A model generated the notes under the pieces. That model was given only the letters and a program-made list of their open reading frames with translations, had not been told where the DNA came from and did not search any database. A program made the position numbers and the translations under genes. This document shows, in pieces, positions 3,166 through 46,570 of a stretch of DNA of 57,163 nucleotides. The stretch is from Paludibacteraceae bacterium (GTDB taxonomy: Bacteria > Bacteroidota > Bacteroidia > Bacteroidales > Paludibacteraceae), in NCBI GenBank assembly GCA_017630395.1, contig JAGBVI010000013.1:1-57163 (forward strand). The letters are read 5' to 3'. How positions within the stretch are numbered: position 1 is the first letter of the stretch; each line of letters opens with the position of its first letter.

Positions 3166-6100
3166 TCAAGGAATTATTCTTGTATTTGTATTACTAAATG
3201 ATACTCCGAAAGGCAGTCCTTTAGAATAACCTATATTAAAACTTGACCACGTTTTGTCTTGAGAAAAAGAATATCCAAAGTCTAATGGACCAACTCCTAT
3301 GGACCACCCATTCCCTTCACCACCATAAGATTCAGCTGTCATCTGTTGTTCGCCCCAATAATTTGAGATTTTCAACCCACCTCCGCCCGATAAATCAAAC
3401 CCTGTTCCAAAACTTGCTGAAGCAGCAACAAATCCTCCATACTGTTTCATGTGTCCCAATTCCGCAGAAAAAGTAACACCTACTCCCAAATAAGCAGAAC
3501 CCGAAAAATAAATAGAATAAGCATCAGAACGGAACAAAAACGAACCAACAGAATACCCTATTCTATCTACACAATCGTCTGCATAAGATAAAGCATTTTG
3601 TACTGATGCCACTGCATTTTTTGCCGAAGCTACTGCATTTTGCGTGTTCTGTGAAATCGCTGCATAAACATTGTTGACTACAGACGGGTTGTAGGAATAA
3701 TCTGCAGGCTCGTAGGAGGATGTATAGCCATAGGCGGTGGAACTTGCAGCCCCGGCTGCGGCACTCTGCGCAGATGCTACAGTCGTCTGAATGGAGATTG
3801 CCACACTCTCCAACATTTGCTGTATTCCTAAATAAATATTTGCCATCATCTCTGCATAATCAAACATCAAACCCAAGTAATAGTTACTAAACTCGCCACT
3901 CGGATCTGTTCGCCAAACCGGATTCTGCATACAATAGGCAAAACGGTTGTGTGAAAGCCAACTACCCGGACTCTGCACATAGGGATCCGGAGAGAGAAAC
4001 TGATTGGTGCGCGCATTGTACATCCTGCCACCCATATCTATCAAGCCCAACTCCGGCAAATGCTCGTGCATACAATACCCACGACTGAAACGCCCTGCAA
4101 CATCCATTGTCACATTCGTTGTCCAATTGCTCGCATTGCGCCTCATACCCCATGGCTTGTAAGAAAATTTCTCTATTTTATTGGTGGCTACATCCATAAC
4201 GGCCGTTAAACTATTCTGGCGGTCTGTAACAGCAGCAAAAAGGGTATCCTTTCCGGCTGTTCGCACATAAATCGCCGCCAATCCATTTCCCCCACAAAGG
4301 TAATGGATTTCGCGAGATTTTCCATCTTTGGAGAGTTCTTTTTCGTAATCACCCAAATAATATTTGGTTCGTTGTAAAGTCCCCGACTTGTATAAACGAG
4401 ACCTATAACGACGTCGGTCCGGCTTATAATCAATGGAGTAAGTCAGATTACCTTGTTTTATTTGCGTAGCCATCCGATAAGAGTCGAACGAAACTGTTTG
4501 AGCATTAGAGACAGAAGAAGAAGAGTATCCAACAGAAGAAACTTGGTGAGGCGGCATCCCATTGGCACCATATCCAATAGTATTCCAATAACCATCCCAC
4601 GTTTTAGTCATATTCCCTTTTGCATCATACCGATGAGTACCCGACAATGATGACGAGCCTTTGGCTGCAGTAACCGTTGCCAAACGATTGGAAGAATCGT
4701 ATGTATAAGACTCGGTATTCCCACTTATAGCATCAGCCTTCTTAACTAATCCCAAAGTTGTATAAGAATAACTTAAATCCTTCAATTTAGAACTACCCTT
4801 ATAGGCTTTTTCAGAAGTCAATCTGCTCTTGCTGTCATACACATACGTTTGAATAACATCGCCTGCCAAGGTCTCCTCCACCACTCTACCTTGACTATCC
4901 AATTTATTAGGTTTCCAAATTGTTTTACCCGCACAAGAGACAGAGGTGAGATGTCCGAAATTGTTGTAAGTATTATTCACAACTACCCCCGAAGGATAAG
5001 TAGTAGTGGAAACATCACCATAATTATTGGCGTAAGCAAATTTTGTTGCAAAAGAGACACCATCCATCAACTCGTTTTTCAAGGTAACTCGATTAAATGC
5101 ATCATAAGTATAAGCACAAGAATAGTTACCTCTGCACTCTTTTGTCAATTGTCCGCTTTCATTATAGGTAAAAGTTGTTTTATCAGTCCCGTCACTCTGT
5201 TCATACAATCTACCCTTTGAATCATACAGATAGTAAATTTCAGAACCATTCTCGGTTGTTGTTAATACCTTTCTTCCGTACGCATCATATTCCACCGAAA
5301 CTATACCTACATCAGGGTCATTGATAGAGGTTCTATTCCCTGCAATATCGTAAGAAAACGTAGTAGTATGACTTCCGGAAGAAGAGAGCGCAGAAGATGA
5401 AGACGGCAAACCGTTCGGAGCGTACGTAAAAGTAACCATTTGTCCATTTTCGGTTCGTTCTATCAACTGTCCGGCAGAATTGCATTTTTCCACAACTGTC
5501 CCCAAAGGCGATGTGATGGTTCTTTTTAATTTGTCATAAGAATATTTTGTTACACCGGAAGGCGCACTAACTTGTATCAGGCGACCAAATTTATCGTAAG
5601 AGTATTGAGTAGAAGGATTTCCACTCGGAGTGCTACCTGTATTTCTCACATACTCATATTCAAGCCTGCCCGCATAATCATAACTATAAAATAAAATTCG
5701 CTCTTTTCCATCCAAATCATATTGTTTTTCTCTCATAACCCTTCCGGAAGCATCATACATAACTTCGCTATCCGAGCTGCCTGTCAAAGTTTTTGAAATA
5801 ATATAATGAGAAGGACGAATATGCGAAAAGTAAGAAGAGGCAACAGTCTCTGTTCTACCATCCGAAAAAGTTTTTTTCAAACAATTGTTAAAGCCATCAT
5901 ATAAAGAATAATTGGTAGTAAAAGAAAGAGTTCCCATTGTTTCCACCATTTTTGTTGGTCGTCCTAATGCCTCATTATGGGTATAGGAGACAACAGAACC
6001 ATCCTCTTGAGCAACAGAAGATAAGAAGCGACCGGAAGCAGTATAAGAATAAGATTTAATCCTACTTTCACACCCTTGCGCAGAAACTTTTTCTTTCAAC

Positions 6101-9018
6101 AAATTACCATTAACGCCATAAGTAAATTCCCTTGTAATAGCTTTATCCGTCCCTTTTAACTCAATAATTTTAGAGGGTGAATATTGCGCATTATATACAA
6201 ACTGAGAAGATGCAGTAACGCTCCCGGAACTGTTTTTCTTTGTTACATTTTTAAACAAAGGCAAAAACATATTATATTCACCGCCTGAGGTTACGCCGGG
6301 GTAGGATGTGGTTACTATCACACCACTGCCATAATTTTTTGTTTCATTAAGCGGATAACCCAAATGATAATTAGAGTAACTTGACGTATGAGAGACCCCA
6401 TTCAAAGCATCATTCTCTACTTTTTTAGTCAATGCTAAATGAAAAGCCTTGCCACTATTTTCATCAGTAATAATTTTAGAATACGTATAATCAGTAGAAG
6501 CATAAATTTCTGAGCCTGCATATTTTGATTCTTTTTTCGGAAACAAAACAGCCGGAGAAGAACTAAGTTCAAACTCCGTTATCTCTGACGTTTCGCTCAC
6601 CTCATCCTCCACCATCACCTTCTTAAACCCAAGAAAACCTTTCCCGGTAACATTTGCAATAGCATCTTCGTACGTATAGGTTTTGATAGAATTTTCAAAA
6701 AAAGCATTCTCTCCATAATCTGTCACAGTTCTCACCACCTTTAAAGGTGTATTTAGGTGCATTAAATTCAGACCATTAGAAAGAGTTGTGTTCTTCGAGC
6801 ATATTTCCTTATCGGTCAACAACCCATAAGAAATAGAAATATCCTTCATCGGAGACAAAATTTTATTAATCAAACCATCTTCATTAGAGAAATTGGCCGT
6901 CGTTCGGTAAATACGAGCACTATTAATCTGACTACTTATCAATGAAGCACCAACAGAAAAAACCTCCGAACGACCAGTTCCATAGAGATCTCCAACAATA
7001 ATTTTATCTCTGCTCAGGGTTCGATAGGCGGCATAGTTAGAAAAAGAAAGAGAAAAGGCGGAACCACTATATTGGTACCAATAAACATTTTTACCCCCAT
7101 CTCTCACTACCACCAATTCCGATTTCCCATCTCCGTTCACATCTGCAGAAAAAGCAAAAGTATTGGACGAGAAAGTTGCGATTTGAGAAACCCCTATCGG
7201 TTCAAATATACAATTACTTCGTCCTAAATAGAGCGTATTAGAAGTGCTTGTAGCCTTAAAAAAGTCTCCAATTCCATCACCATTGAAATCACCAAATTCA
7301 AAAGCAAGATCTTCACTTTGATTAAATTTCATTCCATTTTTAAAATCAGAACTACCATTAGAAAAATTGCACGTTGCGTAACCGGTAGTTTGACCTTTGT
7401 TTTTTAACGTAAAATAACCTTTATCAGAAACTGCAACAATATCTTGAAGTCCATCACCATTCATATCAAAAATAGCTATACGCTGAATTGTCCCCTCTGC
7501 CGGAAATAAAACAGTAGATTTTACAGGATTCATTCCTGAAAAATTAGAAGAACTACCTCCATATATAATATGGGCTCGATGACGCCCTCTACATAAATTT
7601 CGTTCAATTATCACAATATCAGCATAACCATCCATATTAAAATCCGCACACGAATAAAGAGGTATATCATCATGCTCAGTTGACAATGTTATTGCATAAT
7701 AATCAGTAATATTTTTTAAATTGATAAATTTTAAAATCGTTTTATTTTCAAGACAAGGCAAAATTATATCCTGATTAACTCTATTGGTAAAATAACAAGA
7801 CAGAGTACCGGAATACGAACTGTATTTTGCCTCCGAATTTAACGTTGAAGATTTTTCATAACTAAAACCGCTTAAATCAGAAGATGTTCCGGCATTATTT
7901 TTAAAATACTGAAAATACAACCCGACTTTACCACTATTAACAACACAACTATTTGTTAATAAATCAGACTTTCCATCATTATTGTAATCGCCTATAAACC
8001 ATTGCTTCCCGTAATAGGAAACATCAGAAGATTGCGATGCATATTGGGAGAAATAACTATCATGAAAAGAGTTTTCTGTTAAAGAAAAAGCATTCTTATT
8101 CCATGAAAAAATCAAATCGTCTAAATAATCGCCATTGTTTCCATACTTTTTTACGCGTTCAAGATATTTCCTACCCTGAAAATCATCAGAATAAGATAGC
8201 AAATATTTAGAATTAAGAGTTGAGTTGGCGTATGTCCGAACTTCACTAAGTAACTTGTGAATTGATTTTGTATAACCGCCCAATGCATATTGAAAAGGAT
8301 ATGTAAGAGACGATCCATAGAAAAATTCTACTTTACAAGTATGAGGCTTGTTCTCTTTTAAGTTCCCTCCATAAGAAATAGAACTCAACAAAACCGTTGA
8401 TATATTGTATCCACTACTTGTAACACTATAATTATAGGAAATATAGTTCCCATACAAATCTTCTTCTTGCGTAACATGCCAGCCAAAGTTTCCTTCATAA
8501 TAAGACGCACCTTCTTTTAATTGCTTATACGTTTTTTTTCGTCCATTAGTTGTATAAACCTCAAAATAGAAGTTTCCATTTTTACCAAGTCTGACAATTC
8601 TGTCATAATTATCATTTTCCGTCCTAAATTCAACCACGTCTTCATCAATCTCTTCATAAAAAATAAGACGTTGCCCATCCAAAGATAGATAATCTGCATT
8701 ATTATCATTGTTAACCGGTAAAACCATATTGTCATAATAAGGTCTTGCTCCCTCTTTTGCAATTTCAGACGCTCCGACAATATTCCACCCGTATCCTGCA
8801 TCTCCTATACCACTTTGACTATTATAATTCAAAAAAACTTTAGGAGACATACCATTGACACCTTGGGGTAATTCAATTGGAATCGAGTAAATTGCACCTC
8901 CGCTTGGTGATACACTAAACATTCCACCATAATCACCTACAACTAAATTAGCAGCAGATAAAGAAAAAATAAAAGAAAACCCACTTAAAATCAATAATAA
9001 TAGTTTTGTTCGTTTCAT
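3166..9018 (-). CDS. Secreted SpvB/FG-GAP/YD-repeat Rhs protein with variable C-terminal tip
   Basis: A 1950-residue polymorphic toxin. A Sec signal peptide (to about residue 23) is followed by an SpvB-type N-terminal domain (GGAIYSIPIELPQGVNGMSP). Five FG-GAP/VCBS-like calcium loops follow (DYNNDGKSD about 344, DFNMDGYAD about 460, DMNGDGLQD about 520, DFNGDGIGD about 577, DVNGDGKSE about 630). Next come a TcdB-like middle region near 700-730 and many YD repeats from roughly 900 to 1600. The Rhs core ends with DPSGEF at about residue 1709. A linker with the 91-bp junction repeat (residues about 1775-1805) leads to a Gly/Ser/aromatic-rich tip of about 145 residues. By family knowledge the YD shell encloses the tip and delivers it to a competitor. 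No T9SS sorting tail is visible at the C-terminus. The tip activity is not recognised. The gene follows 9027-9836 by 8 bases and heads the immunity/orphan array. Confidence 0.95.
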   Translation of the reverse strand: MKRTKLLLLILSGFSFIFSLSAANLVVGDYGGMFSVSPSGGAIYSIPIELPQGVNGMSPKVFLNYNSQSGIGDAGYGWNIVGASEIAKEGARPYYDNMVLPVNNDNNADYLSLDGQRLIFYEEIDEDVVEFRTENDNYDRIVRLGKNGNFYFEVYTTNGRKKTYKQLKEGASYYEGNFGWHVTQEEDLYGNYISYNYSVTSSGYNISTVLLSSISYGGNLKENKPHTCKVEFFYGSSLTYPFQYALGGYTKSIHKLLSEVRTYANSTLNSKYLLSYSDDFQGRKYLERVKKYGNNGDYLDDLIFSWNKNAFSLTENSFHDSYFSQYASQSSDVSYYGKQWFIGDYNNDGKSDLLTNSCVVNSGKVGLYFQYFKNNAGTSSDLSGFSYEKSSTLNSEAKYSSYSGTLSCYFTNRVNQDIILPCLENKTILKFINLKNITDYYAITLSTEHDDIPLYSCADFNMDGYADIVIIERNLCRGRHRAHIIYGGSSSNFSGMNPVKSTVLFPAEGTIQRIAIFDMNGDGLQDIVAVSDKGYFTLKNKGQTTGYATCNFSNGSSDFKNGMKFNQSEDLAFEFGDFNGDGIGDFFKATSTSNTLYLGRSNCIFEPIGVSQIATFSSNTFAFSADVNGDGKSELVVVRDGGKNVYWYQYSGSAFSLSFSNYAAYRTLSRDKIIVGDLYGTGRSEVFSVGASLISSQINSARIYRTTANFSNEDGLINKILSPMKDISISYGLLTDKEICSKNTTLSNGLNLMHLNTPLKVVRTVTDYGENAFFENSIKTYTYEDAIANVTGKGFLGFKKVMVEDEVSETSEITEFELSSSPAVLFPKKESKYAGSEIYASTDYTYSKIITDENSGKAFHLALTKKVENDALNGVSHTSSYSNYHLGYPLNETKNYGSGVIVTTSYPGVTSGGEYNMFLPLFKNVTKKNSSGSVTASSQFVYNAQYSPSKIIELKGTDKAITREFTYGVNGNLLKEKVSAQGCESRIKSYSYTASGRFLSSVAQEDGSVVSYTHNEALGRPTKMVETMGTLSFTTNYSLYDGFNNCLKKTFSDGRTETVASSYFSHIRPSHYIISKTLTGSSDSEVMYDASGRVMREKQYDLDGKERILFYSYDYAGRLEYEYVRNTGSTPSGNPSTQYSYDKFGRLIQVSAPSGVTKYSYDKLKRTITSPLGTVVEKCNSAGQLIERTENGQMVTFTYAPNGLPSSSSALSSSGSHTTTFSYDIAGNRTSINDPDVGIVSVEYDAYGRKVLTTTENGSEIYYLYDSKGRLYEQSDGTDKTTFTYNESGQLTKECRGNYSCAYTYDAFNRVTLKNELMDGVSFATKFAYANNYGDVSTTTYPSGVVVNNTYNNFGHLTSVSCAGKTIWKPNKLDSQGRVVEETLAGDVIQTYVYDSKSRLTSEKAYKGSSKLKDLSYSYTTLGLVKKADAISGNTESYTYDSSNRLATVTAAKGSSSLSGTHRYDAKGNMTKTWDGYWNTIGYGANGMPPHQVSSVGYSSSSVSNAQTVSFDSYRMATQIKQGNLTYSIDYKPDRRRYRSRLYKSGTLQRTKYYLGDYEKELSKDGKSREIHYLCGGNGLAAIYVRTAGKDTLFAAVTDRQNSLTAVMDVATNKIEKFSYKPWGMRRNASNWTTNVTMDVAGRFSRGYCMHEHLPELGLIDMGGRMYNARTNQFLSPDPYVQSPGSWLSHNRFAYCMQNPVWRTDPSGEFSNYYLGLMFDYAEMMANIYLGIQQMLESVAISIQTTVASAQSAAAGAASSTAYGYTSSYEPADYSYNPSVVNNVYAAISQNTQNAVASAKNAVASVQNALSYADDCVDRIGYSVGSFLFRSDAYSIYFSGSAYLGVGVTFSAELGHMKQYGGFVAASASFGTGFDLSGGGGLKISNYWGEQQMTAESYGGEGNGWSIGVGPLDFGYSFSQDKTWSSFNIGYSKGLPFGVSFSNTNTRIIP
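3604..3694. repeat. 91-bp direct repeat, copy 2 (Rhs tip junction)
   Basis: Lies inside the Rhs gene between the conserved core and the variable tip and matches 1707-1797 at 89 of 91 positions. It is the natural crossover point for tip replacement. Confidence 0.95.
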
Positions 9019-9026
9019 TTTGTATT

Positions 9027-9836
9027 TTAGTATTTTTCAATTTTAATTGCACCTCCATTATTTATCACTAGCAAATAGACACCTTTTTCAAAAGTTGACA
9101 TATCTATTTGTGAATAACCATTATTAAGAAATCCTTTTTTCAAGATTTTACCATGTAAACTACTTAATTCGAATGAAAAATTCTCTCCATTCCCTTTTAT
9201 AAAAAGTATATTTGCAACCGGATTAGGATATACAAAAAAGTTTTCATGCAAACATTGAAAGTCAATCCCCTCGCAAGAATTAATCTCTTTATTTATTTGT
9301 CGAGAAGGACAAATAACTTTTAATTCTCTACTCTGACTATCCATAATGTAACTCAAAGCTGTTCTATCTTGCTCTTCTAAATTTTCAATCGTCCATGGTG
9401 TCAAACCTCTCTTATTGAACAATGATAATTTGGGTTCAATTCTACCATTAAATAAAACTACCGTGTCCCTTTGTAATGAAAGTCCGTTATTAAAATGATC
9501 TCGCCTATTAATCATCACATAATCAATTATTTTACCATCTTCATCAATCAATTGCAACGAATCACCACTCAAAAATCCAAACGGAAGTTCTTCAACCCAA
9601 ACTGATTCTTCTCGAATTGTATCTACACTCAAAGATTTTTCATTTAAACCACATCTAAGCGTCCATTTACCGATATTAAATGAATCTGAAAATGAATTAT
9701 AAAACTCCACATATGGAATGCCCAAGACATTTACTTCAGTTATATACACAACTGCATTTGCATGATATGCAAATAAAAAATAAACAAAAAGAAAAGTCAA
9801 ACCTCTTTTAACCCTTTCTACCAATTTTGTCTTCAT
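9027..9836 (-). CDS. T9SS-exported lamin-tail-like protein, first gene of the Rhs operon
   Basis: A 269-residue protein with a signal peptide (hydrophobic core FLFVYFLFAYHANA) and an N-terminal part that looks like a lamin-tail domain (VYITEVNVLGIPYVEFYNS followed by IGKWTLRCG). From about residue 199 it has a type A T9SS sorting domain (FFVYPNPVANILFI... ending GVYLLVINNGGAIKIEKY). It should be exported through the outer membrane by T9SS and anchored or released. It precedes the Rhs gene by 8 bases and is evidently co-transcribed. I infer it assists surface display or delivery of the Rhs protein, which itself has a Sec signal but no T9SS tail. The family assignments are good; the partnership is inference. 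Confidence 0.85.
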   Translation of the reverse strand: MKTKLVERVKRGLTFLFVYFLFAYHANAVVYITEVNVLGIPYVEFYNSFSDSFNIGKWTLRCGLNEKSLSVDTIREESVWVEELPFGFLSGDSLQLIDEDGKIIDYVMINRRDHFNNGLSLQRDTVVLFNGRIEPKLSLFNKRGLTPWTIENLEEQDRTALSYIMDSQSRELKVICPSRQINKEINSCEGIDFQCLHENFFVYPNPVANILFIKGNGENFSFELSSLHGKILKKGFLNNGYSQIDMSTFEKGVYLLVINNGGAIKIEKY

Positions 9837-20961: not shown

Positions 20962-21570
20962 CTAATGACATAAAGAAATTCCCTCTTTAGCAGAAGCACT
21001 TTGAGGTTGTATTAAGAGAGCCTGATTAAAAAGGAGTTTAGCCTTATCGTAGCGCTTCAGAAAATAAGAATTCCAGGCTGATAAAATAACAATATCATAA
21101 TCAAAAGGATACATTTGTTCCACTCGATCAAAATAGGGTTCTGCTTTACTATATTCGCCTACGTTGTAAAACATCAATCCCCTATAGTAATTAGCCTTGG
21201 AATTTTGAGGATCTAACTTAAGTATCGCATCATATTGTGATGCCACATTTTTCCACATTTTCAGCTTTGCTGCTGGAAGAATATAACCAAATCTAGCCTC
21301 AATTGCAGTTGGTCTTAATTGTATCGCTTTTGTATAATAGACAACTGATTCTTTGTAATTAGCATTTAAATAAAACAACCATCCAATCCTCAAATTAACA
21401 GCGTAACTATTAACTTTCAATTGTTTAAGGGTTGAAACAGCTGCAAGATATTGTTTATCCGCCTCCAATTCATAACTTTTTGAGAATGCAGCAACATTAT
21501 TTTGAGCGAAAGAAATAGTCATAAATAGCATCGCAATTAGCGTAAAAAGAGTTTTTTTTAGTACTTCCAT
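20962..21570 (-). CDS. Periplasmic TPR protein, last gene of the six-gene operon
   Basis: A 202-residue protein with a signal peptide (LFTLIAMLFMTISFAQ, cleavage about residue 22) followed by five to six tetratricopeptide units (for example YKESVVYYTKAIQLRPTAIE, YDAILKLDPQNSKANYYRG and YSKAEPYFDRVEQMYPFDYD). It probably acts as a periplasmic scaffold. Its start lies 13 bases inside the end of the preceding beta-barrel gene, so the two are translationally coupled and are likely physical partners. It resembles the TPR part of YaiO-like proteins, with the barrel on a separate chain. No enzymatic motif is visible. Confidence 0.88.
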   Translation of the reverse strand: MEVLKKTLFTLIAMLFMTISFAQNNVAAFSKSYELEADKQYLAAVSTLKQLKVNSYAVNLRIGWLFYLNANYKESVVYYTKAIQLRPTAIEARFGYILPAAKLKMWKNVASQYDAILKLDPQNSKANYYRGLMFYNVGEYSKAEPYFDRVEQMYPFDYDIVILSAWNSYFLKRYDKAKLLFNQALLIQPQSASAKEGISLCH

Positions 21571-22922
21571 AATAATCCAACTGTTAGAGAATGTCCTATT
21601 GTTTTATTTTGTAACACTATCCAATTATAATTTTGCAAACTATAATAATCCTTTTTCATTGAAAATAAACGATATGACAAATTAATCGAAAAGTTATCTT
21701 TTATTGGTAATATATTCAACCATGATACCCTAAACTTCGGATCACATCCAAACAAATATATTGAATGAGTATCAACCTCATTGTAATAACGCATATTACC
21801 ATGTAAATATGATAGTTCCATCCACCAGACAGGCAGAACTTTATAACCAATAAGAGCCTCTGCCAAAGGATTGTGACTTGCCGTTTCTGCTTGTAACTGA
21901 ACGTTTCTCCAAAGATAATAAAATTTAAGTTTAAAATATAAATTTAAATTTCCTAATGGATAATAGATCCCATTTACTCCAAATTGGAAACTATTTCCGT
22001 CTGCATAGTTCAAATAAGAGAATTCTCCATCTACTTGAAATTGTAAAAAACTATAAGAAACAGAACTTCCTATCAAAAAATCATAAGAAGACTCTTCGCT
22101 TATAGAGACTTTAAAATCCTCCTGAAAATTACTATCTTCCTGGAAATCAGGAGGAATTTCCCAAAAATGCTCATTCTTTTCACCCCATGGACGTTCCCAA
22201 TACGGACTTTCCCCTCGCTCCCTATATCGGTCATGATCATGATATTCCGGATGATATCGATTATAAACAATCTCTCCTCCTTCTACTCCCTGATAATTTT
22301 CATACATAAAATGACCATAAAGAGAAAAAGATAATGCACGATTTTTCCAAAACGAAAGAGACGGAGAATAGCAAAAGAGTTTGTATCTCTCACTATAAGT
22401 TTCAACACTACCGGAAGAAGTACGTAACTCAATATCTCCACTTTGAAAATTAGCAATCAATTTATGATTTATGAGCCATCTATTTTTAAGGTTTTGAGAT
22501 AAACTCACATTAATATTCACCCCTTTTTCATTTAAATTTCTGCTATTCCAATTATAGAAATCGTCATCCTTATTCCTAATATAACCAACTTCATAACAGG
22601 AAGAAAAAATCGGTTTAGGGGATTGAATAAAAAATTGCTCCTTAGATGATTGCGCTAATTCAGAATACAATGAATTTTTCTCAAAACATCGATTCATATA
22701 TTTATATGAAAAATAGAGGTATGAATTTAAGATTGAATCACCTTGAAAATAGTGATGAGCTTGTTCTAAGTATTTGATTGCTTTTAAATAATTAGCTTGT
22801 TCGAACCACGAAATTCCAATACGGCTATTTTCGCAGAACGAAAGAGAATCGATATTCAGTGCATTCGAATGAACGAAATGACTAAATACGAAAACGGCAA
22901 TTATAAGCAAACGTTTTATCAT
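21558..22922 (-). CDS. Outer-membrane beta-barrel protein with N-terminal TPR
   Basis: A 454-residue protein with a signal peptide (LLIIAVFVFSHFVHSNA) and a TPR-like helical part at residues about 30-80 (ISWFEQANYLKAIKYLEQAH). From about residue 105 there are alternating strands rich in aromatic residues and ending in KY, as expected of an outer-membrane barrel (SLSFWKNRALSFSLYGHFMY, LNLYFKLKFYYLWRNVQ, IGHSLTVGLLWKY). An acidic and aromatic insertion (HPEYHDHDRYRERGES) looks like an extracellular loop. It may be a YaiO-type barrel. It overlaps the M23-fusion gene by 4 bases and the TPR gene by 13, so it belongs to the same coupled operon. It could be the outer-membrane exit or a surface-modification partner. 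Confidence 0.82.
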   Translation of the reverse strand: MIKRLLIIAVFVFSHFVHSNALNIDSLSFCENSRIGISWFEQANYLKAIKYLEQAHHYFQGDSILNSYLYFSYKYMNRCFEKNSLYSELAQSSKEQFFIQSPKPIFSSCYEVGYIRNKDDDFYNWNSRNLNEKGVNINVSLSQNLKNRWLINHKLIANFQSGDIELRTSSGSVETYSERYKLFCYSPSLSFWKNRALSFSLYGHFMYENYQGVEGGEIVYNRYHPEYHDHDRYRERGESPYWERPWGEKNEHFWEIPPDFQEDSNFQEDFKVSISEESSYDFLIGSSVSYSFLQFQVDGEFSYLNYADGNSFQFGVNGIYYPLGNLNLYFKLKFYYLWRNVQLQAETASHNPLAEALIGYKVLPVWWMELSYLHGNMRYYNEVDTHSIYLFGCDPKFRVSWLNILPIKDNFSINLSYRLFSMKKDYYSLQNYNWIVLQNKTIGHSLTVGLLWKY

Positions 22923-25075
22923 AAATTAATTTTAATGGACCACTCTTCTCCACTCTCTTTAATATTCAATCTAATATTATTGGTTGTTGTCCAAATAGTT
23001 TCAAAATTGAGTTGCTCTACTAATCTACCAAAAATCTCTTTTTGAAAAGAAGAATAAAAAACCAAATTTTCTGAATGCAAATGCATATCCGGCAATACAG
23101 CATGGAATTTAAATCTAATAAAAGTAACAAAAGGAGCTAAAATATCTTGCAACCATTTTAAGCAACCCATATTGCAATTAATTGCCGGGAATTGCTCTTT
23201 CACAATCCAATTTTGCCCTGATGATTTAAGGACTCTGAAGTTAGATAAGTAAAAATAGTATAAAGCACACTTCTTGTTGCCAACAAATCGTTGAAAATAA
23301 AAGCTTTTACTATCATTGACGAACCAAGCTTTAGCTCCATTATCCGATTGAAGGAAATATCCTCCTAAATAAGAATGAACACTCCATGATTCCAGTCCAA
23401 ATAGAGTTGAATTTACATCTATTTTATTCCCTTCACAGAAGAGATAATTACCTACTTTAAAATTATTTACAGACAGATTAGTTACAACCTCGTCTAATTT
23501 AGGCACACCAGAAGCAACCCATTCAAAATTATTTGTTACAGATAAATAGTAAGTGAAAGGACAATTTTGAGTAGGAGCACCTACGTAGGGCAATTCTTGA
23601 AACTGAAAATGCAAATGAGGGTAAGGAGAATAACCGGAATTTCCGCAAAGTGCCAATTCTTGTCCAAGAGAAATAATATCACCCGGAGCACATTTGATGG
23701 AATCGATTTTCAGATGAGCTAAGAGAGAAAAACAACCCTCAAAATGTTTTAAAACAATATAATTTCCCCAATTATTTTTCCTGTTAACCTGTCCTACTAA
23801 ATTATCTTCTATACCATCGCAAACAGAAATTACAATAGCAGCAGCCGGAGCCAAAACCGGTTTATCATAACAATAATAATCCTCAACCCTCTCCCCGTTT
23901 CCTTTAAATTGCTTATTATCCACTTCTACCACAAAATCCCAAGCATACTTCCATTCATCTTTATGCGTATATTCACCATCGTAACCTTGCTTAACAGTCC
24001 ATTCGCCTAAAAAAGGAAGAGAAAAAGGGAAATAAGAGAGATACTTAAATCGCTTATTATTGACATTATCATAGTAAAAATTTTCCTCCGGAGTATTTTC
24101 TATAATAAAGGGGAAACGGAGAGAATTACTATTTTCTCGTAACTGCAACACATATAGATATAAAATACTTACCAAACAAAAAGAGAAAGAAAACGATGGT
24201 AAGAAAAGATAAGACAAAAATCTCGTAGAAGAGAAAGCTACAATGAACAATGTTGGTAATAATAAAAAAAGTCCCAAGATAGAAGAAAATGAAGGAACAA
24301 TATAACAACCCCCGACAGCAATTGCAGTGAATATAAAATTAAATCCAAAAAACAGAAAAGGGATGTGAAATAATTCAGCTCCTAAAAAATTGTAACAAAA
24401 ATAGCCAGAGAGAAAAAATCCCAAAGCATAACAAAAAGAGAGACGGGAGACACAAAAGAGAGCAATTGAAATTAAAAGACCGGTCAACCTATCTGATTGA
24501 AAAAATAGCACACCAATACTTTTAAGAAAAAGGTCAAAATAAATTGGCATTTCAACATCATTCAACTTCTCTATTAAAGTATAGATAGAAAATTCACCAA
24601 TAGCAAGATATTGAGGAGAAGTAAACAATAAAACATCAGTGCTAACCCCTGCATCCAATTGTTGTGACAACAAAAGAACAATCCACAGACAAGCTAAAAA
24701 TGGGAATGCTAAAAATGGAAGATTATATTTCTTAAAAAATCCCTCCATCACAACAGTAAGCATCAACACCAATAACGATAAGGCAAAAATCAGAACTACC
24801 AATGTCTCACTATAAGGATAAATAGCACCTAAAGCAAGACCTATCATAATTGCATTAAAACCATATAATCCGGAACGAACCTTTTCCCTATTAAGCGATA
24901 ACGACAGAGATATAGCATTCACCAACATACAACAAAATAATCCGCAAACACCTTGTAACGGATAAAGCATTGTGATACAACACAAAACACAACCGAACCA
25001 TTTGTTTTGCGTAAAAAAAATGGATGAATAACTAAATAACAGACTATCAAAAAATAACCTTATTTCACTCTTCAT
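22919..25075 (-). CDS. Urea-transporter-like membrane domain fused to an M23 peptidase-like domain
   Basis: A 718-residue protein. Residues 1 to about 320 are very hydrophobic with about ten membrane segments and look like the urea transporter family (SGLYGFNAIMIGLALGAIYP; a second half with FFLSGYFCYNFLGAELFHIP). After a short linker an extracytoplasmic domain (about 350-510) has LytM/M23 features: AWDFVVEVD (Asp380), LVGQVNRKNNWGNYIVLKHF, SLLAHLKIDSI and the HxH motif PHLHFQF (His487/His489). At the usual first zinc-ligand position (HxxxD) there is Lys376, and the nearest His is 371, so activity is uncertain. About 200 further residues follow with no recognised domain. The gene overlaps both neighbours (4 and 11 bases). 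The substrate of the channel domain need not be urea. Confidence 0.88.
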   Translation of the reverse strand: MKSEIRLFFDSLLFSYSSIFFTQNKWFGCVLCCITMLYPLQGVCGLFCCMLVNAISLSLSLNREKVRSGLYGFNAIMIGLALGAIYPYSETLVVLIFALSLLVLMLTVVMEGFFKKYNLPFLAFPFLACLWIVLLLSQQLDAGVSTDVLLFTSPQYLAIGEFSIYTLIEKLNDVEMPIYFDLFLKSIGVLFFQSDRLTGLLISIALFCVSRLSFCYALGFFLSGYFCYNFLGAELFHIPFLFFGFNFIFTAIAVGGCYIVPSFSSILGLFLLLPTLFIVAFSSTRFLSYLFLPSFSFSFCLVSILYLYVLQLRENSNSLRFPFIIENTPEENFYYDNVNNKRFKYLSYFPFSLPFLGEWTVKQGYDGEYTHKDEWKYAWDFVVEVDNKQFKGNGERVEDYYCYDKPVLAPAAAIVISVCDGIEDNLVGQVNRKNNWGNYIVLKHFEGCFSLLAHLKIDSIKCAPGDIISLGQELALCGNSGYSPYPHLHFQFQELPYVGAPTQNCPFTYYLSVTNNFEWVASGVPKLDEVVTNLSVNNFKVGNYLFCEGNKIDVNSTLFGLESWSVHSYLGGYFLQSDNGAKAWFVNDSKSFYFQRFVGNKKCALYYFYLSNFRVLKSSGQNWIVKEQFPAINCNMGCLKWLQDILAPFVTFIRFKFHAVLPDMHLHSENLVFYSSFQKEIFGRLVEQLNFETIWTTTNNIRLNIKESGEEWSIKINL

Positions 25076-26405
25076 AATGCTCTTTACATGTTACATATTC
25101 GAAGTCATCAGCACCTCGAATAATTTTTGCATGACTATTTTTATCTAACAACACAACAGCAGGTCTATATGAGATAAATTGCATAGATTGCGTAACATTA
25201 TATGCCCCGACATTGTGAACGACCAAAACATCCCCTTTATTCAACAACGGTAATGCGACTCGCTCTCTTAGCACATCAACATTCATACAAAGAGGACCGT
25301 ACAAAGTGCTATCTTCCCAATGAGACGAGCGAAACTCAGTGGCAGAAATTTTATGGTTGTACCAGAAAGAGGTAAATAATATATTCACACCGGCATCAAC
25401 AATAGTATTTAATCTCCCATCAGGATTTCTTTTATTTGCAACAACAGATGTAAGTAAAAAACCGGCATCATCAATTAAAGCTCGTCCTGTTTCCAATAAT
25501 AACAAAGGTGTAAACTTGGCAACATAACTATTCTCTTTCAATTCATCCGTTATCACCCTTGCATAATCACTGATAGAAGGGGAACAATCCTCACCGCTTA
25601 AGTAAGAACCTTTGAGCGTATTCTTTGACGCAAATCCTCCACCTAAATCCAAGTAGGCAATCGAGTGATGCAATTCATTATATATCTTTTCAGCTAATGC
25701 TGCCATTTTTTTTGCTTGAACTTTATAGGCATTTAAAGATAAAATAAAAGTTCCAATATGACAATGTAATCCTTTTAAATTCAATTTTTTTTCTTGAATG
25801 ATTTTAGTAACCATTCTCCAAGCCTCACCATTTTCCAAATTAAAGCCAAAACGACTCCAAGCAGGAGAGATTCCGGCATCTAAATTTACTCTAATAGCAA
25901 CATTTACAATTTTGTTGCATCTCTCAGATAAATGAGAGAGCAATATCAATTCTTGCAAATTATCAATATGAATAAGCGACTCATTATCAATTGCTAACAA
26001 TAAATCTTCTTCACTTTTATTAGGGCCATTAAAAATGATATTTGTTCCACGTACTCCATTTTGGAGAGCCTTTTTATACTCAAATCCGGAAACCACTTCA
26101 GCCCAAGCGCCCTCTTCATGAAAAATTTTACATATTGCATTCAAGTAGTTGGTTTTATAGGACCATGCAAAACAAACATTAGGATACCGATTTAGGAAAT
26201 TGCTTTGGGCTTCTTTAAAATTGTTTCTTAGCGTAGATTCCGAAAACAAGAAAAGAGGAGAACCAAATTTCTTCAACAAAGAAGAAGGTGTATGTCCATC
26301 TATCTCAGCAACAAGAGGTAGCGAAACATTATTGCCTGATTTCCCGGGCATAGTTGCAACTATTGGTTTAATCAACGGCCTTTCATATACTTTTTTCTTC
26401 TTCAT
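25065..26405 (-). CDS. PLP-dependent decarboxylase, DapDC/ODC fold type III
   Basis: A 446-residue enzyme of the alanine-racemase-fold decarboxylases (diaminopimelate, ornithine or arginine type). The PLP lysine is in CFAWSYKTNYL. Also visible are HCHIGTFILSLNAY, the glycine loop YLDLGGGFASKNT, LLLETGRALIDDAG, GPLCMNVDVL (the usual Cys and Asp of the active site of the partner subunit) and VGAYNVTQSM near the end. The sequence is not close enough to LysA for me to call it lysine biosynthesis, and there is no lys or dap gene nearby. Its neighbours are an ATP-grasp ligase and a PqqD-like protein upstream (4-base overlap) and the urea-transporter/M23 fusion downstream (11-base overlap). I infer it makes or trims an amino-acid-derived building block for that system. 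Confidence 0.88.
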   Translation of the reverse strand: MKKKKVYERPLIKPIVATMPGKSGNNVSLPLVAEIDGHTPSSLLKKFGSPLFLFSESTLRNNFKEAQSNFLNRYPNVCFAWSYKTNYLNAICKIFHEEGAWAEVVSGFEYKKALQNGVRGTNIIFNGPNKSEEDLLLAIDNESLIHIDNLQELILLSHLSERCNKIVNVAIRVNLDAGISPAWSRFGFNLENGEAWRMVTKIIQEKKLNLKGLHCHIGTFILSLNAYKVQAKKMAALAEKIYNELHHSIAYLDLGGGFASKNTLKGSYLSGEDCSPSISDYARVITDELKENSYVAKFTPLLLLETGRALIDDAGFLLTSVVANKRNPDGRLNTIVDAGVNILFTSFWYNHKISATEFRSSHWEDSTLYGPLCMNVDVLRERVALPLLNKGDVLVVHNVGAYNVTQSMQFISYRPAVVLLDKNSHAKIIRGADDFEYVTCKEHYEE

Positions 26406-27439
26406 AATTCAGCTTTTGATGAAAATTTACCAAACTCAGAAAAGTCTACAATCAAATCCCAAGAACAACGAACAAACATTTTCCCCACTTCGTATTCCAA
26501 ATTTGCACTAATCTTCTCCTTTTTAATCAATTTAACAATAAGTTCCGGAATGTTTTGTCCGGATGCAGTAGCCAAATAGACCCAAGCCGGAATCCTTGGA
26601 TTTACTTCAATCAAATAAAATTTTCCTTCATCACTACGAATCCATTCCAATTCAAATGGACCTTTCCATGAGGTTTTTTGAACAAAAGTACGAGTTAAAT
26701 CTAACAAATTTTCATCATTGATTGTAACTCCAGCCCAAGCTTTACCTTTATCTGTGATATATTGTTTTCGCATGGCAACATAAGAGAGTAATCTCCCCTC
26801 GCCATCAGACAATCCAATAACATTAAACTCAGCTCCGGAAACAAAACGTTGAACAATAATCGGCACCCCCCATCGACAAGAAATATCATTGAACGCAGAA
26901 AAAAGTTGCTCCTGATTTCTTGTGATGACAGCTTCGTAGAATTGCCCCTTCACAACAAGAGGAAATTCCCAATCTAAATTCATTAAGTCATTATATGAAA
27001 AACAATTTCGACTATCCGGAATATCAATTCCTGTTAGAGATGACAATTTTGGCAAATTACATTTCTGCCTTAATTCAAACTGCTCTAAAGAAGGAAGATA
27101 GGTTCCAATATTCAACAATCCAAGTCGAGATTGCAATAAAATAAAAGAATTTAATTCTGCATCTAAATTAGGAATTATCACATCTATATTCTCTTTTTGT
27201 TGAATATAAGCAAGACGCGAAAAAAGGAGTTCTGATCCTTCCGTTGGATTGGGCAATTGATAGGCAACATCTATTAAATCTCGCATATAGTTTCCGGGTT
27301 CCAACGATCCATAGCTAAGACCCACTATTCTGCAATCTTGGTATTCGGATTGACGTAAACTACGAGCAACAGAAATACCGGCACTTGGATTATCTGTTGC
27401 GTTCATTCCACTAATGGCTATCGTTAACCTCTTCATCAA
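26402..27439 (-). CDS. ATP-grasp ligase of the PqqD/decarboxylase operon
   Basis: A 345-residue ATP-grasp enzyme of the CarB-like group. It has an N-terminal nucleotide-binding-like domain (LTIAISGMNATDNPSAGIS). The ATP-grasp core has the phosphate loop lysine at FPLVVKGQFYEA, the adenine-side segment VPIIVQRFVSGAEFNVIG, and the metal ligands Glu and Asn in FELEWIRSDEGKFYLIEVNP. Such enzymes join a carboxylate to an amine through an acyl-phosphate. It overlaps the PqqD-like gene by 4 bases upstream and the decarboxylase by 4 bases downstream, so the three are made together. The substrate is unknown. No graspetide-like precursor gene is visible. Confidence 0.9.
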   Translation of the reverse strand: MMKRLTIAISGMNATDNPSAGISVARSLRQSEYQDCRIVGLSYGSLEPGNYMRDLIDVAYQLPNPTEGSELLFSRLAYIQQKENIDVIIPNLDAELNSFILLQSRLGLLNIGTYLPSLEQFELRQKCNLPKLSSLTGIDIPDSRNCFSYNDLMNLDWEFPLVVKGQFYEAVITRNQEQLFSAFNDISCRWGVPIIVQRFVSGAEFNVIGLSDGEGRLLSYVAMRKQYITDKGKAWAGVTINDENLLDLTRTFVQKTSWKGPFELEWIRSDEGKFYLIEVNPRIPAWVYLATASGQNIPELIVKLIKKEKISANLEYEVGKMFVRCSWDLIVDFSEFGKFSSKAEL

Positions 27440-27702
27440 TCTTCAACCAATCTATATCTTACACAAAGAGCAATAAAATCTTCTAAATCAGTATCTAACA
27501 CTACTTCTGAAACATCATATTGCTCTAAAATTTTTTGTTTAATTATATCCATAGTATCCCCGGACTTTATCCAAGACAGAATCGTTTGTCCTAATGAATT
27601 CAGAGTATAACACTCTCCACTTTTAGGACAAAAAACAAAACCATCTTGTTCTAAATTTATAGTTTTATCTACCTTCATTTGCAAAAAATCATTGAACAAC
27701 AT
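27436..27702 (-). CDS. PqqD-like small carrier/recognition protein
   Basis: An 88-residue protein with the PqqD-family pattern: a short N-terminal strand region (FVFCPKSGECYTLNSLGQTI) and then a winged-helix part (LSWIKSGDTMDIIKQKILEQ, then DLEDFIALCVRYRLVED). PqqD-type domains normally bind the leader of a ribosomal peptide and present it to a modifying enzyme. Here no radical SAM gene is visible and the next gene is an ATP-grasp ligase (4-base overlap). The C-terminus VED is acidic and exposed, so a role as an amino-group carrier similar in idea to LysW is possible but speculative. It is the first gene of the operon. Confidence 0.85.
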   Translation of the reverse strand: MLFNDFLQMKVDKTINLEQDGFVFCPKSGECYTLNSLGQTILSWIKSGDTMDIIKQKILEQYDVSEVVLDTDLEDFIALCVRYRLVED

Positions 27703-27873: not shown

Positions 27874-28353
27874 TCAAATCAACTTCCATCTAATTCTCAA
27901 AACACCATCAGAATAACTATGGGTAAGGAGTTTAAATATCCCAATCTCCATGGTATGTTCCACATGTGTACCAATACACAAACATTGGTCATAATCCCCA
28001 ATACTTACCACTCTTAATGTATCGGAAGTACCCTTTGGAAGACGATTTATATCAAAACGCTCTTTTGCCTCTTCTTCTGGAATATAAGTAATGATGATGG
28101 GTAAATCCAGTGAAATAATACGATTCACCTCCGATTCAAGTCGTTGTAAATCCTCTAAAGAGAGTTCTTTATCCATTTTAAAATCCAATTTACTCTTTTT
28201 CTTTTCGATATGAGCAGAAATGGCACGACCACAATCGAACAAACGAACCATAGTTTGATTAATAATATGCTCACAAGTATGAGATGGAGCTATAGAAAAA
28301 TCTTGAAATTTAGCTTTACCTGCTTCGACTTCGTTCCTTAGATTATCTTCCAT
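27874..28353 (-). CDS. AlaX-like tRNA-editing protein
   Basis: A 159-residue stand-alone homolog of the second additional domain (SAD) of alanyl/threonyl-tRNA synthetases, which hydrolyses mischarged tRNA (for example Ser-tRNA-Ala). The zinc motif His25-x3-His29 is in SHTCEHIINQ. The second pair is in QCLCIGTHVEHTMEIG, equivalent to CGGTHV of AlaRS. It is shorter than full AlaX proteins because it lacks the N-terminal glycine-rich barrel part. It is a separate gene upstream of the PqqD operon, with a 171-base gap. The full alaS lies at 37179-39797. Confidence 0.88.
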   Translation of the reverse strand: MEDNLRNEVEAGKAKFQDFSIAPSHTCEHIINQTMVRLFDCGRAISAHIEKKKSKLDFKMDKELSLEDLQRLESEVNRIISLDLPIIITYIPEEEAKERFDINRLPKGTSDTLRVVSIGDYDQCLCIGTHVEHTMEIGIFKLLTHSYSDGVLRIRWKLI

Positions 28354-43832: not shown

Positions 43833-44726
43833 ATGGAACTTGTAGGAATAAGTAGAAGCAAACAATTTTCACCTAACCAAACAGGAAATGACACACAAAT
43901 TTTTCATCTAACAATAGAAAAATTAATTGCAAAAGGATGTAAAATTAGAGAGTATTCAGAAGATGAGTTTATAACTAAAGAATTGCCCTATCAATACTAT
44001 TTTGGAATGTATAGGGACAAACGCAGTGTGGCAAAAATGAAAATATTAGAACAAAAAGGATGCTTTAGTATCAACACTGCACGGGGCATAGAGAGTTGCT
44101 ACCGAAATAATATGACACAAACATTAATTAAGCATAAAATCCCCTACCCTAAAAGTAAAATTGTATCAATCAACCAGGATGTAACAAAAGCAATAGATGA
44201 ACTTGGAGGAGAAAATGTTTGGATTAAAAGAGGTGATTTCCATGCTGAGCAAGAAGAAGATGTGTCCTTCTGTAAAAATTCAAAAGAATGGAATACACTG
44301 CTCCGAAAATTCTCTCGTAGGAATATACAGAGTGTAACTATATCAGAACATATCGAAGGTGATTTAGTAAAATTTTATGGAGTTATGGGAACCAATTTTT
44401 TTTATTGGTTCTATCCCATCGATATGAACTATACAAAATTCAATCAAGAAATAATTAATGGTAAAACTCACCACTATCCATTTACCGAAAAAAAATTTCA
44501 ATCTATCTGTCAAAAGGCAGCGTTCTCATTGGGCATTCAAATCTATGGAGGAGATGCCATTATCTCATCAACCGGAGCGATACACTTGATAGATTTGAAT
44601 GATTGGCCGAGTTTTGCTCCATGTCGAGAAAAAGCATCAGAAGCAATAGCAGAATGTATCTATAGAAATTTCAAAACACTTAGTTATTATGGACAAAACA
44701 AATTATGCATCAACGCTGAAATCTGA
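43833..44726 (+). CDS. ATP-grasp enzyme, first gene of the lipid locus
   Basis: A 297-residue RimK-like ATP-grasp protein. Visible are the central-domain segment TQTLIKHKIPYPKSKIVS, the ATP lysine in ENVWIKRGDFHAEQ, ISEHIEGDLVKFYGVMG and the metal-binding end IYGGDAIISSTGAIHLIDLN followed by DWPSFAPCREKASEAIA. The last 38 bases overlap the CDP-alcohol phosphatidyltransferase gene in another frame, so the two are tightly coupled. By family it forms an amide or ester with ATP. Its lipid-related substrate is unknown, and modification of the lipid head group by an amino acid is one possibility. Confidence 0.85.
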   Translation: MELVGISRSKQFSPNQTGNDTQIFHLTIEKLIAKGCKIREYSEDEFITKELPYQYYFGMYRDKRSVAKMKILEQKGCFSINTARGIESCYRNNMTQTLIKHKIPYPKSKIVSINQDVTKAIDELGGENVWIKRGDFHAEQEEDVSFCKNSKEWNTLLRKFSRRNIQSVTISEHIEGDLVKFYGVMGTNFFYWFYPIDMNYTKFNQEIINGKTHHYPFTEKKFQSICQKAAFSLGIQIYGGDAIISSTGAIHLIDLNDWPSFAPCREKASEAIAECIYRNFKTLSYYGQNKLCINAEI

Positions 44727-45594
44727 AGATACAGAAGAGTGGTTTGATCTTCAATTTACTCGTCCCATAGGCTATTATTTAGCCTATGCCTACCAACGAA
44801 TAAAAGTGTCACCCAATGGAGTAACTCTTATTAGCATTATATTGGGGATAGGCGCAGGGATTTGCTTCTACTCTTCACAGTTAGAGATCAATTTCATCGG
44901 AATGGCATTACTGATATTAGCCAATCTACATGATAGTGCAGATGGACAATTAGCAAGGCTAACAGGAAAAAGCACTCGAATAGGAAGAATATTAGATGGT
45001 ATTGCAGGAGATTTATGGTTTATCACAATTTATATCTCACTATGTTTACGACTATCTCCGATGGACCCTACTATTTGGTTCATAGCCATCATTGCAGGTA
45101 TTTCACACGTGATTCAAGCAGCTATGGCAGACTACCATAGAAACATTCACCTGCTATTTGTATATGGAAGAAATAGAAGTGAAATAGAGAGCAGTGATGA
45201 TATCGAAAGAAAAATAAAAGAATTATCATTCAGCCAAGCACCGCTTTCAATTGTTGCCCTATATATTTATAAAAATTATACAAAACTGCAGGAATTCTTT
45301 TCTCCGCAGCTGCAGAAGTTACTAAAGCAGATAAAATTAGAATATGGAGAAACGATACCCCAACAGCTATCTACACTTTTCCGCATAAAAAACAGACATC
45401 TGATGAAATATACCAATATACTAACATTTAATACCCGAATGATTATACTATTCATCACCCTTCTAATAGAACAACCGAAGCTATACTTTTACTGCGAGAT
45501 AACAATATTCAACCTGCTACTATTATACATGATATACAAACAAGAACAGATAAGTAAGTTCTTTTACAAAAGAGTAACCTACAATGCACAATAA
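44689..45594 (+). CDS. CDP-alcohol phosphatidyltransferase family enzyme
   Basis: A 301-residue integral membrane enzyme. The full catalytic motif is present: DSADGQLARLTGKSTRIGRI then LDGIAGD, matching D-x2-DG-x2-AR-x8-G-x3-D-x3-D. Hydrophobic segments surround it, and a longer charged loop (IERKIKELSFSQ) precedes the last helices. Such enzymes transfer a phospho-alcohol from CDP-diacylglycerol or a related donor. With the inositol-phosphate synthase and serine palmitoyltransferase in the same locus, inositol phosphate is the likely acceptor, giving phosphatidylinositol phosphate or an inositol phosphosphingolipid. It overlaps the ATP-grasp gene by 38 bases and the flippase-like gene by 11. 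Confidence 0.92.
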   Translation: MDKTNYASTLKSEDTEEWFDLQFTRPIGYYLAYAYQRIKVSPNGVTLISIILGIGAGICFYSSQLEINFIGMALLILANLHDSADGQLARLTGKSTRIGRILDGIAGDLWFITIYISLCLRLSPMDPTIWFIAIIAGISHVIQAAMADYHRNIHLLFVYGRNRSEIESSDDIERKIKELSFSQAPLSIVALYIYKNYTKLQEFFSPQLQKLLKQIKLEYGETIPQQLSTLFRIKNRHLMKYTNILTFNTRMIILFITLLIEQPKLYFYCEITIFNLLLLYMIYKQEQISKFFYKRVTYNAQ

Positions 45595-46564
45595 ATCAAA
45601 AATACAAAACCTATTTATGCTCATTGGGGCTATTGCATTTGTATTAATGATATACAAAATAGGAATCAGAACAATAACAGATAATCTACTAAAGATTGAA
45701 TGGTGGATAATACCAATTCTTGCCTTATGGGTGTTAGTCTATCTTCTTAACACACTATCAGGACTAATGATTATCAATAACTTAGAAAATTTAAGACATA
45801 TAGGATTTTTTCAACTATACAAAATCACTCTATCTACATTTGCTATTAACACAGCTACCCCCATGGGATTGATAGGAGGAGAGCCATACAAGATTATAGA
45901 ATTAAGTCCCTATTTAGGTAGCAACAAAGCCACCTCATCGGTGATACTATTTTCCGCCATGCACTTTTTGGCTCACTTTATATTTTGGATGCTTTCCATT
46001 ACACTAACATTGGTGATTATCCCATTAGATTTAACATGGAAGATAGCCTTATCTACATCATTCATTATCTGTTTACTACTATTCAATCTAACCCTAAAGG
46101 GATGCAATAAAGGGATAATAAATAGTGTTTTCAAGTGTGTAAAACGTCTACCTCCATTAGAACATATAGTAACAAAATTTATTGAAAAGAACAAAAATAA
46201 CATTCAAATCATTGACAGCCAGATAAAGGGACTACAAAACAACAATCCCACCATATTTTATGCCACATTGATAATAGAGCTAGCAGCAAGGATTATAAGT
46301 TGCGCAGAACTCTACTTTTTATTTATTGCTTATCAAACACCAATTAAGTTTATAGATTGTATTCTGATAATGGCTTTTACATCTCTATTGGCAAATATTT
46401 TATTTTTTATGCCTTTACAAATTGGCACACGAGAGGCTGGGTTTATACTAAGCATGAAACTCCTTGGCCTATCCCCTACCTTAGCCATTACCATTAGCAT
46501 AGTGACACGAATAAGAGAACTATTTTGGATGATTATAGGAATAATTCTGATAAAAATAAAATAA
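45584..46564 (+). CDS. LPG-synthase-TM/UPF0104-type flippase-like membrane protein
   Basis: A 326-residue protein with about eight membrane segments and the conserved patterns of the family (NTATPMGLIGGEPYKIIEL, then FMPLQIGTREAGFILSMKLL). Members are related to the membrane part of lysyl-phosphatidylglycerol synthase and are often described as lipid flippases. In this locus it could move the newly made lipid across the inner membrane. It overlaps the preceding gene by 11 bases and is followed after 6 bases by the HAD gene. Confidence 0.88.
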   Translation: MHNKSKIQNLFMLIGAIAFVLMIYKIGIRTITDNLLKIEWWIIPILALWVLVYLLNTLSGLMIINNLENLRHIGFFQLYKITLSTFAINTATPMGLIGGEPYKIIELSPYLGSNKATSSVILFSAMHFLAHFIFWMLSITLTLVIIPLDLTWKIALSTSFIICLLLFNLTLKGCNKGIINSVFKCVKRLPPLEHIVTKFIEKNKNNIQIIDSQIKGLQNNNPTIFYATLIIELAARIISCAELYFLFIAYQTPIKFIDCILIMAFTSLLANILFFMPLQIGTREAGFILSMKLLGLSPTLAITISIVTRIRELFWMIIGIILIKIK

Positions 46565-46570
46565 ATAAAA

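Follow-up and report, generated by a model that had tools for sequence, protein, structure and literature searches.

The six genes on the reverse strand between positions 20,962 and 27,702 of contig JAGBVI010000013.1 from a Paludibacteraceae bacterium (hereafter "the window", the whole 57,163-nucleotide stretch that was analysed) form a strongly conserved unit across many families of Bacteroidota. They encode a small PqqD-like protein, an ATP-grasp ligase, a pyridoxal phosphate (PLP)-dependent decarboxylase, a urea transporter (UT)-type channel domain fused to an M23 metallopeptidase domain (UT-M23), an outer-membrane β-barrel and a tetratricopeptide repeat (TPR) protein. An earlier, sequence-only reading of this DNA knew no named pathway with this combination, and our full-text literature search, which left most subscription papers uncovered so that an earlier description is possible, likewise returned no account of the gene set or of the UT-M23 fusion. 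The tightness with which this unit is kept across a large phylum, with no described function that we found, implies that Bacteroidota make broad use of an as yet unknown metabolite or modification of the envelope.

A conserved six-gene unit in Bacteroidota

The sequence-only reading had proposed a search for the six genes as a conserved neighbourhood and had named their scattering in relatives as the outcome that would speak against a unit. We fetched 151 neighbourhoods and kept 135 non-redundant loci, scoring the upstream genes at the 99 loci with at least 5.5 kb of upstream sequence and the downstream genes at the 115 loci with at least 2.6 kb downstream; pqqD was sought by profile search on all frames, greedy picking of open reading frames (ORFs) having missed the gene at 9 of the 14 loci (of 40) that seemed to lack it. 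The pqqD, ATP-grasp and decarboxylase genes were all present at 93/99 loci and all absent at the other six (L054, L060, L061, L062, L067 and L154). Downstream of UT-M23, the TPR gene was found at 107 loci, the barrel gene at 98 and both at 97. The genes therefore stay neighbours rather than scatter, and the proposal that they are one functional unit, linking cytoplasmic amide chemistry to the envelope, is supported by this conserved neighbourhood.

Five of the six loci without the upstream trio (all but L154) come from draft genomes in which a full-length ATP-grasp gene lies on another contig. There, pqqD adjoins the ATP-grasp gene in all five and the decarboxylase gene does so in three, the remaining two carrying it on a further contig. 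An operon that is split in five genomes while the set stays intact is strong evidence for shared function. ATP-grasp was not found in the sixth genome, a 1.9-Mb metagenome-assembled genome that may be incomplete (another locus, whose UT-M23 is 93% identical, belongs to a genome of 4.9 Mb).

The same association holds at the level of whole genomes. Across a phylum sample of 395 genomes, UT-M23 matched in 35 and ATP-grasp in 34, all of them among those 35; the match in the 35th genome (G372) covers the M23 part only (residues 344-496). The hypergeometric probability of the 34-genome overlap is about 2e-48, uncorrected for kinship. Over 110 loci, the pairwise distances of the ATP-grasp protein, the decarboxylase and UT-M23 correlate with one another at 0.85-0.87; for PqqD the values are 0.69 with UT-M23 and 0.66 with ATP-grasp. 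Such correlations would also be expected of linked genes.

UT-M23 relatives number at least 504 in named genomes and, by their record titles, range from ruminant stomachs to sediments; the culturable Plebeiobacterium sediminum (locus L159) is among the carriers. Among the matches listed, the seven closest are 43-48% identical to the window protein; for six of these the record title reads Paludibacteraceae, with ruminant stomachs as the usual source. Within the order of the window, 126 of 295 genomes have a match, although in five of these (G022, G082, G173, G186 and G257) the best match is to M23 only. None of the three genomes sampled from the family to which the window belongs (G041, G151 and G245) has one, so the operon appears patchy even within the family, via loss or transfer. 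Identity to the window is 47-53% for ATP-grasp (16 relatives) and 49-55% for the decarboxylase (15 relatives); unlike these two, the barrel is poorly conserved (15-23%, 24 relatives). Across the 110 loci, the ATP-grasp proteins have a mean identity of 58%.

ORF calling places all six genes in one block with five overlapping junctions (Table 1), and both the ORFs and the domain labels given to them by the sequence-only reading hold, the latter by Pfam. The overlaps of 4, 4, 11, 4 and 13 bases that it reported, in gene order, are those that the ORF caller sees, with the ATP-grasp ORF called to 27439. At that position a TTG directly abuts an ATG at 27436, which makes a TGATG junction with a 1-base overlap between pqqD and the ATP-grasp gene likelier than the 4-base one. 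The PqqD start probably also lies 24 bases further in than called: in 93 of 111 aligned sequences, the column that holds residue 9 of the window protein is a Met. The 13-base overlap between the barrel and TPR genes recurs in 83/103 loci, pointing to translational coupling of this pair.

Table 1. Genes and domains of the six-gene unit, followed by other features of the window
Feature	Position	Strand	Remarks
PqqD-like small protein	27436..27702	-	PF05402; probable start 27678, 80 aa
ATP-grasp ligase, 344 aa	26402..27436	-	PF15632 and PF02655; likely start ATG 27436
PLP-dependent decarboxylase, alanine-racemase fold, 446 aa	25065..26405	-	PF02784 and PF00278
UT-M23 fusion, 718 aa	22919..25075	-	PF03253 and PF01551
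UT-M23, urea-channel fold	residues 1-341
UT-M23, M23 metallopeptidase	residues ~345-521
UT-M23, C-terminal beta-rich region, unassigned	residues ~522-718
Outer-membrane beta-barrel, 454 aa	21558..22922	-	AlphaFold2 model; N-terminal signal-like segment and TPR-like helices
TPR protein, 202 aa	20962..21570	-	TPR families; N-terminal signal-like segment (by eye)
tRNA_SAD-domain gene	27874..28353	-	171 bases upstream of the pqqD ORF, same strand; presumably AlaX-like
1950-aa protein	3166..9018	-	Pfam matches to RHS repeats, FG-GAP repeats, SpvB/TcdB-middle-like
269-aa protein	9027..9836		type IX secretion sorting tail
Tight gene cluster	43833..47257	+	CDP-alcohol phosphatidyltransferase, LPG-synthase-TM-like, HAD hydrolase, 297-aa protein without Pfam match

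Enzymes, pore and barrel

The two proteins encoded first belong to families that are readily named. PqqD matches PF05402, the family of PqqD and of the recognition elements of ribosomally synthesized and post-translationally modified peptides (RiPPs), at 34.4 bits (cut-off 23.4), and the ATP-grasp protein exceeds the cut-offs of PF15632 (39.3 bits against 29.1) and PF02655 (27.9 against 23.2). A single-sequence search with the ATP-grasp protein against solved structures gave no match; profile matches, led by 2pn1 (E 1.8e-10), included carbamoyl phosphate synthetase. Judged by these searches, the protein is distant from solved enzymes. Its best plasmid match, from Streptomyces, is 29% identical; of the 21 neighbouring features there, in an incomplete gene table, none is annotated as a decarboxylase, PqqD or channel.

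The decarboxylase is closest to N-citrylornithine decarboxylase (FslC/FigC). The best match in the PDB is 7kh2, an N-citrylornithine decarboxylase (E 2.2e-63), and the top NCBIfam model is FslC (NF041039), which scores 248.3 bits, half its cut-off of 500. Both proteins are PLP decarboxylases of the alanine-racemase fold. The FigC paper names K63, E287, R290 and a glycine loop as active-site residues, and places Met355, which follows the catalytic Cys354, where ornithine, arginine and diaminopimelate decarboxylases have the aspartate that binds the amine of the substrate side chain (PMC7857480). In the family of the window, K84, G255-257, E305, R308, C373 and Met374 are invariant in 16/16 aligned members, so that the Cys-Met pair of FigC recurs as C373-M374. 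FigC His357, proposed in that paper to contact the citryl moiety, aligns with Val in the window. The resemblance to FslC/FigC, together with the Cys-Met pair, suggests a conjugated substrate, and the change from His to Val a conjugate other than the citryl one. The window enzyme also differs from FslC/FigC in that its gene adjoins one for an ATP-grasp protein.

The N-terminal part of UT-M23 has the urea-channel fold. It matches PF03253 at 145.7 bits (cut-off 25), falls below the cut-off of the narrower TIGR03441 (87.8 of 274.6 bits) and, in its structural model, can be aligned with human UT-B over its whole length. The pore nonetheless differs in sequence. Residue 189 aligns with the Gln of human UT and the Glu of dvUT, a Gln or Glu in the solved urea channels that we take to be in contact with urea; here it is Ala in 108/134 sequences and Val in the window, and the Thr of those channels is mostly Ser. 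The term "urea channel" of the sequence-only reading thus stands for the fold, whereas for the cargo it is not supported, given this pore position and a lack of co-occurrence with urease (see below).

Fusion to an M23 domain further sets UT-M23 apart from UT-B, dvUT and the other urea transporters of PF03253. This domain matches PF01551 at 41.4 bits (cut-off 28.7), and the five His/Asp positions for metal binding and catalysis are invariant in 134/134 sequences. It shares the fold and all five residues with M23/LytM endopeptidases such as ShyA, LytM and DipM and looks like an active peptidase, not the wall-binding domain that had been proposed. M23 metallopeptidases are usually extracytoplasmic. 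The domain in UT-M23 is attached to a channel and is predicted to be cytoplasmic: with the loop boundaries drawn manually on the model, and averaged over 134 sequences, Lys and Arg number 5.0 in the short loops on the cytoplasmic side of UT-B, 1.3 at the N-terminus and 3.1 just past the last helix, against 0.6 in the short loops of the opposite side. This distribution and the UT topology make a cytoplasmic position of the M23 domain the likelier one. The Cys content of the soluble part of UT-M23 (1.2%, against about 0.2% in the barrel and TPR proteins) was considered as a further cytoplasmic sign and dropped, because one or both of the two main Cys positions also occur in M23 relatives that look secreted. 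Four stand-alone M23 proteins (L196-L198 and L200) have an extra N-terminal region with a signal or lipobox, and have the motif region in common with UT-M23; the fused domain may come from a donor related to them.

If the M23 domain is indeed an active cytoplasmic hydrolase, UT-M23 would be a new protein architecture, in which a pore of urea-channel fold is joined to an M23-type zinc hydrolase. The unit offers a test case for two questions: can M23 peptidases be active in the cytoplasm, and can UT-fold channels carry cargo that is not urea?

Neither Pfam nor NCBIfam has a family that matches the barrel protein. In its AlphaFold2 model (mean pLDDT 81.3), a helix at the N-terminus resembles a signal by eye; the model also has TPR-like helices and a barrel closed by an even number of long strands, 14, in agreement with the outer-membrane barrel of the sequence-only reading. 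The best Foldseek matches are FadL (E 5.8e-12), TodX and OmpG, which are 14-strand barrels as well; identity to them is about 10%, and the TPR-like helices at the N-terminus of the window protein are a difference from them.

A proposed biosynthesis-and-transport model and its alternatives

We tentatively favour an account, with somewhat less than even confidence, in which the six proteins form one envelope-spanning biosynthesis-and-transport system of Bacteroidota. The ATP-grasp enzyme, with PqqD as its docking subunit, would join an amino acid through an amide bond to a partner, be it a small acid, a peptide or a protein. The PLP enzyme would then decarboxylate the amino-acid head of this conjugate, not the free amino acid, and hydrolysis of the conjugate would fall to the zinc site of UT-M23, located where the channel opens to the cytoplasm. 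We envision that a small product without charge, not urea or not urea alone, crosses the inner membrane through the UT pore, and that the TPR protein and the 14-strand barrel take it over the outer membrane; the strand count was taken in favour of this export half. An amino-acid-derived product is plausible. The scheme is reminiscent of LysW/LysX amino-group-carrier biosynthesis, with an ATP-grasp enzyme that loads, an enzyme that modifies and a metallopeptidase that releases. The fuller claim, of an undescribed phylum-wide system with a UT pore of altered selectivity, an M23 domain at its cytoplasmic mouth that releases the ATP-grasp/decarboxylase product into the channel and an outer-membrane exit of its own, is one that we regard as less likely than not.

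Several points weigh against this biosynthesis-and-transport model. The data establish the gene unit and its folds; each chemical and transport step of the scheme is inferred. The amine left by decarboxylation would be charged, hence ill-suited to a UT pore. The lysA model (TIGR01048) scores the decarboxylase almost as high as FslC does, at 236.7 of 297.9 bits; both scores are below cut-off, and both models match 16/16 aligned members. LysW-type amino-group carriers have a conserved acidic C-terminal motif, which is not seen in the alignment of PqqD, a protein of another family. "Carrier", the role given to PqqD by the sequence-only reading, is accordingly only one possibility: PqqD may dock a peptide, dock the ATP-grasp enzyme or act as a carrier. 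As to topology, the loops were assigned to the cytoplasm by transfer of the UT-B topology, and the 50-residue T5-T6 loop on the opposite side holds 3.5 Lys/Arg. Lastly, the stand-alone M23 relatives L196-L198, of which L196 and L198 are near-identical kin, have N-termini that by eye resemble signal peptides, and L200 by eye has a lipobox.

These relatives lead to the most serious alternative, envelope modification, which we consider rather unlikely. The M23 domain would here be periplasmic and cut peptidoglycan or an envelope peptide, letting an amine or amide made in the cytoplasm attach to or cross the wall, while the barrel and TPR proteins organise the complex. Consistent with this, a signal peptide or lipobox is seen by eye in 4/5 stand-alone M23 relatives (the fifth, L199, has membrane helices), many of the matched M23 structures are peptidoglycan hydrolases, and the operon includes a barrel and a TPR protein, both with signal-like N-termini. 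However, the UT domain spans UT-B end to end with no extra membrane helix evident before M23, and the charge distribution favours a cytoplasmic C-terminus.

A RiPP-type pathway, in which PqqD brings a ribosomal peptide to the ATP-grasp enzyme and the decarboxylase and the M23 domain serves as leader peptidase, is improbable. PqqD-type recognition elements and ATP-grasp enzymes do occur in RiPP pathways (PMC8939145, PMC12710340), and the window has both the PqqD fold and the ATP-grasp family. It differs from such pathways in having a decarboxylase and a channel in place of a maturase, and in that no precursor was found near pqqD. Among 1010 candidate ORFs of 18-90 aa in 102 regions of about 600 bases upstream of pqqD, we found no convincing or conserved precursor; distant ones were not searched and could exist. 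The recurring ORF groups there are pieces of AraC regulators, of secretion tails and of the tRNA_SAD gene (the window and four close kin), and the others are found in at most four loci each. A peptide, moreover, would not fit through the UT pore.

Synthesis of a metallophore or siderophore, as in rhizoferrin production, has little probability in our view. The nearest decarboxylase family does act in rhizoferrin synthesis, and an AraC-type regulator whose N-terminal part is HMA-like by eye accompanies the operon in 26/99 loci. On the other hand, the six conserved families include neither an NRPS-independent siderophore (NIS) synthetase, in which the unit departs from the rhizoferrin genes, nor a TonB receptor (Pfam); the His of FigC proposed to contact the citryl part is replaced as described above; and among 13 aligned AraC regulators the HMA-like part is not constant in its cysteines.

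Uptake or release of urea in the service of nitrogen metabolism is more improbable still. The UT fold would suit it, and the ureohydrolase family PF00491 is found in 27/34 carriers of the unit, a count made in carriers only. Urease, though, is found in 1/34 carriers and 12/395 genomes overall (about 1.0 expected), the genome of the window has no match to urease (PF00449) or PF00491 at E 1e-10, and the Gln/Glu position of the pore is mostly Ala. A chance neighbourhood of genes that share no function, conceivable as dense operons are common, is refuted by the all-or-none trio, the same-genome co-occurrence in 5/6 split cases and the 34-genome overlap with its kinship-uncorrected probability.

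Neighbouring genes and other features of the window

Near the operon, the 99 upstream-scored loci also hold an AraC regulator (26 loci), an acyltransferase (8 loci) and a protein with a secretion tail (26 loci, of which 14 are low-scoring and perhaps only a tail); these counts may reflect linkage or abundance. The AraC-type proteins with the HMA-like part lie mostly directly upstream of pqqD (for example L047:12148-12753), which makes them candidate regulators of the operon. Insertions of IF-2B family, aminotransferase, PKD, LRR, polysaccharide deacetylase or GNAT genes formed no cluster in four or more of 40 loci and offered no hint. Two further clusters of neighbouring genes recur near the operon as well.

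Pieces of a tRNA_SAD gene like that of the window are also found upstream of pqqD in L104, L105, L106 and L108, outside the wider conserved unit. Elsewhere in the window, the 1950-aa RHS protein stands beside the 269-aa protein with the sorting tail, and the tightly spaced genes on the forward strand look like a lipid headgroup cluster.

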